A DNA stretch of 64,000 nt from Candidatus Tanganyikabacteria bacterium (GTDB taxonomy: Bacteria > Cyanobacteriota > Sericytochromatia > S15B-MN24 > VGJW01). A model generated the notes under the pieces. The model did no database searches. It was given only the letters and a program-made list of their open reading frames with translations, and had not been told where the DNA came from. Below are positions 16,096 to 18,513 of the stretch, piece after piece. The first letter of the stretch is position 1; every line of letters begins with the position of its first letter. The stretch spans positions 62,001-126,000 of the forward strand of contig VGJW01000004.1 of assembly GCA_016867265.1 (NCBI GenBank). The letters are read 5' to 3'. The translations under genes were made by a program, and so were the position numbers.

Positions 16096-17613
16096 TCAAC
16101 GCCGGGGCTCGGCCACCCAGATCGAGCCTGCGGGACCGACCTCCCCGAGCAGCACCTTGCGGCCGGCTACCTTGACCGTGCGGCCCGAAAGGACCTCGCG
16201 AAGCACGGTGCCATCAGCCAGGCTGGTATCGGCCACCGGCACCTCGAGGCGTCCCGCTGCATCACCAGCATTGACGACGACCAGCGCGCGGCTCTCTCCC
16301 TGCCAATCGCGAAGATAAGCCCAGAGACGCCGATCGTTGTGGCGAAGCAGGGTCTGGAACCAGCCGTCGCGCAGCGCGCGTACCTCACGGCGCGCCTTGA
16401 TGAGGGCGCGGTAGTGACGGAGCGTGCCGGCATCCCACTGCGCCGTCTGCCAAGGGAAACACCGCCGATCGTCGGGGTCCTTGCCTCCGGTCATGCCGAC
16501 TTCGTCACCGTAATAGACGACGGGTGTCCCGGGATAGGTCATCTGCAGGAGCACGGCCGCCCGTTGGCGTTCCGGCCGCTCACCCGTCTCGAATCGGAAG
16601 CGTTCGACATCATGACTGCCCAGGATGTTGAACATCGCGTTGGTCGAGGGTCCGCCCCAGCCCCGCTGCGTGGCCAACTCCCTGTCGAGCGTGTCGACAT
16701 CCATCTGGCGCTTGGCCGCGAAGGCCACCAAGGCCTTCTGGAAAGGATAGTTCATCGTGGCATCGAAGCGCCCGAGCCAAGGACGCGGATCGTCCCAAAT
16801 CTCGCCGACGAGATAGGCCTCGGGATTGATGGCGAGGACCTTGGCGCGGAAAGCTTCCCAGAAGCCTGGCTCGGAGATCTCGTTGGGCACATCAAGACGC
16901 CAGCCATCGATACCCATGCGCGTCCAGTGCGGCACGACCGTATCGAGGATGTAGTCCCGCACGGCGGGATTGCGGAAGTTGAGCTTTGGCAACGTCGCAA
17001 AGCCCCACCACGAGTCATAATTGGGCCGGGGCTGCTGCACCACGGGAAAACCGTAGAAGTTGTACCAAGACCAGAAGGGTGATTCAGGACCCTTGCGGGC
17101 CGCCTCGCGGAAGCCGGCGAACTGATCACCCGTGTGGTTGAAGACGCCGTCGAGGATGATGCGCATGCCCCGGGCGTGGACATCCGCGACCAAGGCGCGG
17201 AAGGCGGCCTCGTCGCCAAATGCGGGGTCAATCCGCAAGTAATCCGTTGTGTCGTACTTGTGGTTCGAGGGAGACTGGAAGATGGGATTCAGGTAGAGCG
17301 CCGTGACACCGAGGCTCTGCAGGTGGTCGAGATGCTGCCGGATGCCCTCGAGGTCTCCCCCGAAGAAATTCGTGATGGTCGGCTTGCCCCCCCACGGCTC
17401 GGTACCTGGCGGATCATTGGTCGCCGAGCCGTTCGCGAAGCGATCCGGGAATATCTGGTAGAAGACGGCGTCCTTGGCCCACGCCGGGGCGCCCTGCCGA
17501 ACACTGCGCGCGCCGAGCCCGTTGCGCTCTGATGCGACCAACGTCCCGCGGGGGGCGGACAGGCCACAACCCGCAACCAGACCAGCCAAGGCTAGAATCG
17601 ACGCACGATGCAT
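16096..17613 (-). CDS. GH13 alpha-amylase/neopullulanase-like lipoprotein
   Basis: 505 residues with a lipobox (GLVAGC, Cys16), so anchored outside the inner membrane. The (beta/alpha)8 domain begins near residue 45 (DAVFYQIFPDRFANG). Conserved regions include DGVFNHTGD, GWRLDVPNE (nucleophile Asp241), YLVGEIWDD (acid/base Glu271) and LGSHDVERF (Asp335). Such enzymes cleave alpha-1,4-glucans or cyclomaltodextrins, some with transfer activity. A beta-sandwich C domain ends the protein. It converges on the preceding lipoprotein gene and is transcribed alone. Confidence 0.9.
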   Translation of the reverse strand: MHRASILALAGLVAGCGLSAPRGTLVASERNGLGARSVRQGAPAWAKDAVFYQIFPDRFANGSATNDPPGTEPWGGKPTITNFFGGDLEGIRQHLDHLQSLGVTALYLNPIFQSPSNHKYDTTDYLRIDPAFGDEAAFRALVADVHARGMRIILDGVFNHTGDQFAGFREAARKGPESPFWSWYNFYGFPVVQQPRPNYDSWWGFATLPKLNFRNPAVRDYILDTVVPHWTRMGIDGWRLDVPNEISEPGFWEAFRAKVLAINPEAYLVGEIWDDPRPWLGRFDATMNYPFQKALVAFAAKRQMDVDTLDRELATQRGWGGPSTNAMFNILGSHDVERFRFETGERPERQRAAVLLQMTYPGTPVVYYGDEVGMTGGKDPDDRRCFPWQTAQWDAGTLRHYRALIKARREVRALRDGWFQTLLRHNDRRLWAYLRDWQGESRALVVVNAGDAAGRLEVPVADTSLADGTVLREVLSGRTVKVAGRKVLLGEVGPAGSIWVAEPRR

Positions 17614-17710: not shown

Positions 17711-17911
17711 ATGACATTCCACGACATGCGCGCAGCATTGGATCAGGCGCTGGCGTCGGGCCCGAGGGACCAGCAGCATCTGGTCGCGACGGTCGACGCG
17801 GCCTGGGCCTGGATAGAGGCAAATCCCGAGGCCGGTGAGGAAGCCATCACGGACCTCAGGGTCCGGATTGCGCACGCCGAGAGCCTTATCGGTCGCTACT
17901 TCGGCATGTAA
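17711..17911 (+). CDS. Small hypothetical protein
   Basis: 66 residues, acidic and helical (MTFHDMRAALDQALASG ... AESLIGRYFGM). It has a Shine-Dalgarno-like aaaggga upstream of the ATG and ends 16 bases inside the convergent redoxin gene. Composition looks coding, but I do not recognise a family. Confidence 0.5.
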   Translation: MTFHDMRAALDQALASGPRDQQHLVATVDAAWAWIEANPEAGEEAITDLRVRIAHAESLIGRYFGM

Positions 17912-18513
17912 GCCGCAAGGACCTTGCGGACGACGGAGGGATCGGCACGATCCGCAGCATCAGCCCCGATGTGTGCCCACGCGACACGTCCATCAGGTCC
18001 GACGACCACCAGGGCAGGCCGGGCGTAGACACGATTGGCCTCCCGGCCGGCACACGCGTCGATCAGGCGATAGCCCGCGTCGGAGACCAGGGGATAGTGG
18101 AGCTCCAGTTCACGGGCCAGTACGCGAAGGTCCTCAGGCCGGTCGTGGCTGATGGCCAGAAGACCGACGCCCCTCGGCCAGGTCTTGCGTTCCTCGCGCA
18201 ACTGCGCGAGTTGGTGGCGACAGTGCCCTCAGGTGAATACCCTGAAGAACACCAGGACCTGCGGTCCCGGCAGGGGCAGACTGACCGTGGCGCCGTGCGC
18301 CGTCGGCAGCGTCACCCGCGGGAATGGCTGACCTGCCCACACCCGGGCAGCCCGCCTGAAGGCCTCGCGCACCGGCGCGTCGGCGGGTGGCGCCGTCAGG
18401 GTCCAGACGCCCCACAGGACAAGTAACCCGGATGCCACGAAGGCAACCAAGGCGAGCCAGCGGGGCACGGCCACACCAGTATCGATTGTCGGACGCTCCA
18501 CGCCGATGAGCAT
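17896..18513 (-). CDS. Membrane-anchored thioredoxin-fold redoxin with in-frame TGA: candidate selenoprotein
   Basis: Two open stretches lie in the same frame, 18513-18232 and 18228-17896, separated only by TGA at 18229-18231. Read through, they give 205 residues: an N-terminal membrane anchor (about 18-42, ALVAFVASGLLVLWGVW), then an AhpC/TSA-redoxin fold (VLVFFRVFT, TGA95, GHCRHQLAQL, GVGLLAISHDRPEDLRVLA, ALVVVGPDGRVAWAHIG). The TGA takes the first position of the CxxC-type motif (U95-G-H-C98), exactly where selenocysteine replaces redox cysteine in known redoxin selenoproteins. Cys98 and the whole downstream domain are intact, and a SECIS-like hairpin follows. The alternatives are a fresh nonsense mutation or a sequencing error. 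selA, selB, selC and selD are not in this window. Confidence 0.75.
18193..18231 (-). promoter_or_regulatory. SECIS-like element directly after the TGA codon
   Basis: On the coding strand the TGA is followed by 18 nt, then a perfect 7-bp stem CUCGCGC/GCGCGAG closing a tetraloop AGUU. The loop begins 25 nt after the TGA and has G in its second position. This fits the described bacterial SECIS pattern: loop 16-37 nt downstream of UGA, 3-14 nt long, with G in its first two positions. Confidence 0.6.

Follow-up and report, generated by a model that had tools for sequence, protein, structure and literature searches.

Described relatives of the redoxin

UxxC selenoproteins of the Pfam family PF00578 are listed in published tables (PMC13188914, PMC9312934), among them the Prx-like thiol:disulfide oxidoreductases with UxxC or UxxU motifs (Table 1 of PMC13188914). 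A redoxin gene in the window, i.e., the whole 64,000-nucleotide stretch of DNA that we analyzed, resembles the latter in its Pfam domain and in the position of selenocysteine (Sec), which would be the first residue of a UxxC motif. It differs from them in the motif itself (UGHC), in its N-terminal anchor and in its host, a non-photosynthetic member of the Cyanobacteriota. By predicted activity, the protein is of a known kind, a UxxC Prx-like thiol:disulfide oxidoreductase of PF00578. A sequence-only reading of the same DNA had proposed a new selenoprotein; this holds in so far as the protein is a new member of the UxxC Prx-like PF00578 group, but not in the sense of a new kind of protein.

Against the curated NCBIfam models for the most similar protein types, the redoxin stayed below every cut-off. 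The best match was to the SelL-related redox protein (NF040769), which has a thioredoxin fold and a UxxC-type site in common with the window redoxin. Against a cut-off of 120, the window protein scored 49.3 bits and its orthologue in another genus of the same family (genome G001) 67.4 bits, while an anchorless homologue from a more distant member of the class (genome G010) came closer, at 88.3 bits. The TUGYCR thioredoxin-fold (seleno)protein (NF053656, cut-off 100) is alike in its local motif, T-U-G-Tyr/His-C; its model gave 13.3 bits with the orthologue and no match with the window protein. ResA/TlpA oxidoreductases also possess an N-terminally anchored thioredoxin fold, with CxxC where the window redoxin has UxxC. 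Only the orthologue matched the ResA model (NF002854; 60.2 bits, cut-off 170), the first Cys of the ResA motif being replaced by Sec in the redoxin. Sec peroxiredoxins (PF00578, TxxU) belong to the same superfamily, and another copy in the genome is of this type (PKAFTPGU). In these proteins Sec occupies the peroxidatic position, whereas the Sec of the window redoxin precedes that position by three residues and falls on the CxxC site.

A redoxin gene interrupted by a single UGA

Translation of the minus strand yielded a frame from an ATG at 18513 to a TAA at 17898-17896, with a single internal TGA at 18231-18229, which agrees with the sequence-only reading that one TGA is the sole interruption of a 205-codon frame (Table 1). 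There is a stop three codons 5' of the ATG in the same frame, and hence translation from an ATG can begin no further upstream than 18513. The residues around the UGA are F-T-U-G-H-C. The product exceeded the Pfam cut-offs of both AhpC-TSA (58.1 bits; PF00578 gathering score 26) and Redoxin (33.5 bits), with the G001 orthologue scoring 101.4 bits against PF00578. The further proposal that U-G-H-C begins at the first CxxC position of a thioredoxin fold behind a membrane anchor was likewise borne out by the Pfam matches, the alignments described below and a hydrophobic stretch near the N-terminus.

Table 1. Features of the redoxin locus, with positions in the window.
Feature	Position	Strand	Details and evidence
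Predicted membrane-anchored UxxC redoxin selenoprotein gene	17896..18513	minus	205 codons including UGA (Sec95); translation, Pfam, syntenic orthologue
In-frame UGA, codon 95, very probably read as selenocysteine	18229..18231	minus	sole internal stop; UGA aligned in G001 and in the distant G010 homologue; Cys in CxxC-type homologues
Predicted active-site motif U95-G96-H97-C98, CxxC type	18220..18231	minus	three-homologue alignment and BLAST columns
SECIS-like hairpin, 7-bp stem CUCGCGC/GCGCGAG, loop AGUU	18193..18210	minus	loop start 25 nt after UGA; pairs changed on both sides in G001 and G010
Predicted N-terminal membrane anchor, residues 18-40	18394..18462	minus	hydrophobic stretch; confident helix in single-sequence model
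AhpC-TSA/Redoxin thioredoxin-fold domain, residues 61-179	17977..18333	minus	Pfam profile match
Alpha-amylase-family gene (context only, not part of the selenoprotein)	16096..17613	minus	syntenic in G001

The codon-usage score in the redoxin frame was +0.165 upstream and +0.182 downstream of the TGA, with every other frame scoring lower. A single-sequence fold was poor overall (pLDDT 48) and confident only for the helix at residues 18-40; it was used for this N-terminal helix only. In the orthologue, the hydrophobic stretch is preceded by the positively charged KPRR, which suggests that the C-terminal redoxin domain lies outside the cytoplasmic membrane.

A convergent ORF of 66 aa (MTFHDMRAALDQALASG...; 17711-17911, plus strand) overlaps the 3' end of the redoxin gene by 16 nt. 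Given that a similar stretch is found at the same place in G001, this ORF is probably a conserved small gene.

Conservation of the UGA codon in homologues

The G001 orthologue is 41% identical to the window redoxin (E 1e-23) and contains one TGA, at the same codon as in the window (LVFFRTHT-U-GHCQHHLTQLRD). As in the window, it adjoins an alpha-amylase-family gene (70% identity over 238 aa by tblastx). On the 3' side of the UGA, the two proteins share 40 of 103 aligned residues, and the nucleotide differences at the first, second and third codon positions number 49, 41 and 64, respectively. This identity, together with the excess at third positions, indicates that the downstream part of the redoxin is under protein constraint. 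The view that the gene is not decayed is therefore upheld by the constraint past the TGA and by the coding signal on both sides of it.

G001 supplied the only close homologue that was found. An alignment of homologues at position 95, suggested in the sequence-only reading, has UGA in this close homologue and Cys in the CxxC-type homologues (motifs WCDPC, WCPYC and CGYC). Amongst plasmid records, there was one distant Cys homologue, from Variovorax, with the motif CGYC. In the more distant G010, a TGA is located at the corresponding site of a homologue at L046 1417-1959 (VRHFG-U-LFCRQQVAQLR). A genome-wide scan with the Cys-for-Sec peptide pattern identified zero relatives, and a search for the DNA pattern F[FY]RxxTUG[HY]C across 85,000 genomes returned seven matches, approximately the number expected by chance and none of them in a redoxin frame, so that this motif can be regarded as rare. 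The G010 protein itself is a SelL-like redoxin without a membrane anchor, its motif being U-L-F-C.

A SECIS-like hairpin downstream of the UGA

According to the published model, a bacterial SECIS element has a stem of 4-16 bp and a loop of 3-9 nt, situated 16-37 nt after the UGA, with a G within the first two loop positions and an MFE of at most -7.5 kcal/mol (PMC13188914). The redoxin hairpin fits this model (7 bp, loop AGUU, spacing 25, -19.8 kcal/mol for a 51-nt stretch) and has the stem, loop and spacing that the sequence-only reading had attributed to it. However, hairpins of 7 bp or more that satisfy a simple SECIS rule occur at approximately 9% of window positions, and 2.9% of synonymous recodings of the redoxin did as well on the hairpin. 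By itself, the hairpin is weak evidence that exceeds chance only moderately.

The hairpin becomes convincing through its conservation in a second genus. Both the AGUU loop and the 25-nt spacing are identical in the window genome (G000) and G001, with one stem pair changed from G-C to A-U. An AGUU loop at a spacing of 25 is also present in G010, with more double-sided changes, and another register scores equally there. Across these three homologues, three of the seven stem pairs were changed on both sides, and pairing, at 90% in the alignment as it stands, did not exceed 67% once the hairpin partners were slid; a pair-shuffle control on the same three sequences was not significant (82/500). A further point against the hairpin is that its loop overlies conserved Gln-Leu codons.

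Selenocysteine machinery and further probable selenoproteins

The window genome is represented by a draft assembly of 2.85 Mb in 41 contigs (98.2% complete, 0.3% contaminated). The search for selA, selB, selD and tRNA-Sec that the sequence-only reading had recommended found all four in this genome. The tRNA-Sec scored 69.3 bits and was given the anticodon TCA by ARAGORN. SelA (530.9 bits) is directly followed by SelB (325.3 bits), which contains EF-Tu, SelB beta-barrel and SelB-wing_3 domains, and SelD (343 bits) has a UGA of its own at the usual Sec site. The selD gene is found on contig C1 (L018 1531-2532) and carries an 8-bp SECIS-like hairpin.

SelD, which belongs to an established selenoprotein family, was used as a control for the hairpin. 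In six of the seven UGA copies, a GU-loop hairpin with a stem of 6-9 bp was present 33 nt after the UGA; the seventh (G003) retains most of the stem with its top pair mismatched, and the hairpin is absent from the only Cys copy (G008). This is the pattern that selection on SECIS hairpins would give in these genomes.

When the genome was searched for PF00578 with stops read through, 11 matches were obtained, of which two contained a TGA, i.e., the window redoxin and a peroxiredoxin encoded about 6 kb away from selB. The latter (C25:16696-17067; L078 1453-2001) reads FFPKAFTPG-U-EAEM and is of the TxxU type, and its homologue in G008 (L028) has Cys at the U site. No simple SECIS hairpin was evident near the UGA of the C25 peroxiredoxin. 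Formate dehydrogenase was considered as a further Sec client; of two molybdopterin-family matches, neither had an internal stop. The genome thus likely encodes at least three selenoproteins, namely SelD, the TxxU peroxiredoxin and the UxxC redoxin.

Alternative readings and predicted function

From the genomic evidence, we are highly confident that the redoxin gene encodes a true selenoprotein. If the locus were an ordinary Cys redoxin turned into a pseudogene by a nonsense mutation, or an artefact of a sequencing error, a single base change (TGC or TGT to TGA) would suffice, and the draft state of the assembly (41 contigs) would be in keeping with this. However, a syntenic gene from another genus, assembled separately, has the same TGA codon, the sequence past it retains coding signal and constraint, and the genome possesses the full Sec machinery. 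Indeed, the UGA, the AGUU loop at the same spacing and a compensatory stem change in the other genus make sequencing error or decay very unlikely. Separate translation of two halves, with the UGA acting as a genuine stop, is just as improbable: a 101-aa downstream ORF that starts with TTG at 18201 is present, but dividing the protein in this way would break the active-site helix and part strands of one domain, and it does not accord with the conservation of the UGA and hairpin or the presence of Sec machinery. A genome-wide reading of UGA as another amino acid (Trp, as in code 4), for which no support was found, has a negligible probability, given that the selD gene of the genome and the redoxin gene of G001 terminate in TGA, that the large genes nearby in the window stay open with no need to decode a TGA, and that the Sec system is complete. 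All three of these readings were rejected.

With regard to function, we lean towards thiol:disulfide exchange, rather than peroxide reduction, as the main role of the predicted selenoprotein. A selenoprotein acting mainly as a peroxidase (Prx/GPx-like) seems rather unlikely to us, although AhpC-TSA is the best-scoring domain and profile comparison gives PrxQ/Bcp-type thiol peroxidases as the best relatives of solved structure. Sec also commonly increases peroxide reactivity. In sequence alignments, however, the peroxidatic Cys of PrxQ-type proteins aligns with C98 and not with U95, which instead aligns with the first Cys of CxxC, and it is this correspondence that favors an oxidoreductase. Furthermore, the TxxC/TxxU motif of peroxiredoxins is absent from the redoxin, and a Sec peroxiredoxin of the TxxU type is encoded elsewhere in the genome. 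The PxxxTxxC/U arrangement around the peroxidatic Cys or Sec that typifies peroxiredoxins was not found in the redoxin, the Sec of which is at the CxxC position.

For the favored oxidoreductase, SelD would supply selenophosphate, with which SelA would turn Ser-tRNA-Sec into Sec-tRNA-Sec. The C-terminal winged helices of SelB would bind the AGUU-loop hairpin, leading to the insertion of Sec at UGA-95. A single N-terminal helix would hold the product in the cytoplasmic membrane, and on the outer side, where the redoxin domain would lie, Sec95 could act as the nucleophile that reduces disulfides or, less likely, peroxides, with resolution by Cys98, and the Sec95/Cys98 pair may then be re-reduced by a thiol donor.

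Probable selenocysteine use in the phylum

According to a review, Cyanobacteria appear to be without Sec (PMC9312934), and a survey of more than 5200 organisms mentions them only for an orphan SelD in Prochlorococcus (PMC5029168). Amongst the 386 genomes of the phylum that we sampled (142 genera), SelA was detected in seven, all from the 18-genome class of the window, and was absent from the remaining 368 genomes outside this class. The tRNA-Sec was found in exactly the same seven of the 18 class genomes as SelA, and SelD in those seven plus one genome that is 64% complete.

Several phycobilisome proteins were found in every listed relative of the phylum outside the window's class and one small-genome family, and none in the window genome; this distribution places the window genome in the phylum Cyanobacteriota. 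We infer that its non-photosynthetic 18-genome class corresponds to the Sericytochromatia. The Sericytochromatia-like placement put forward in the sequence-only reading thereby gains indirect support, from the distribution of phycobilisome proteins and the 18-genome class.

Our search of freely accessible published papers found none with both “Sericytochromatia” and “selenocysteine”, and large surveys may include the class without naming it. The novelty thus lies in the lineage, as Sec use in this class seems to have been undescribed so far. On balance, we judge that one non-photosynthetic class within the Cyanobacteriota really uses Sec, a trait as yet undescribed, probably with a small selenoproteome of redoxins and SelD rather than formate dehydrogenase. 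The trait may be ancestral, its loss elsewhere having preceded or accompanied oxygenic photosynthesis, or it may have been acquired later by transfer. The co-occurrence of SelA, tRNA-Sec and SelD in one class makes it a testable question whether Sec was used by the cyanobacterial ancestor and then disappeared as oxygen rose. In these genomes, standard annotation can be expected to break up the redoxin gene, selD and the peroxiredoxin gene at their UGA codons.

One genome of the same class, G012, had two phycobilisome-family matches (best E 1.6e-19), the class being otherwise phycobilisome-free; these may represent contamination or a divergent relative.
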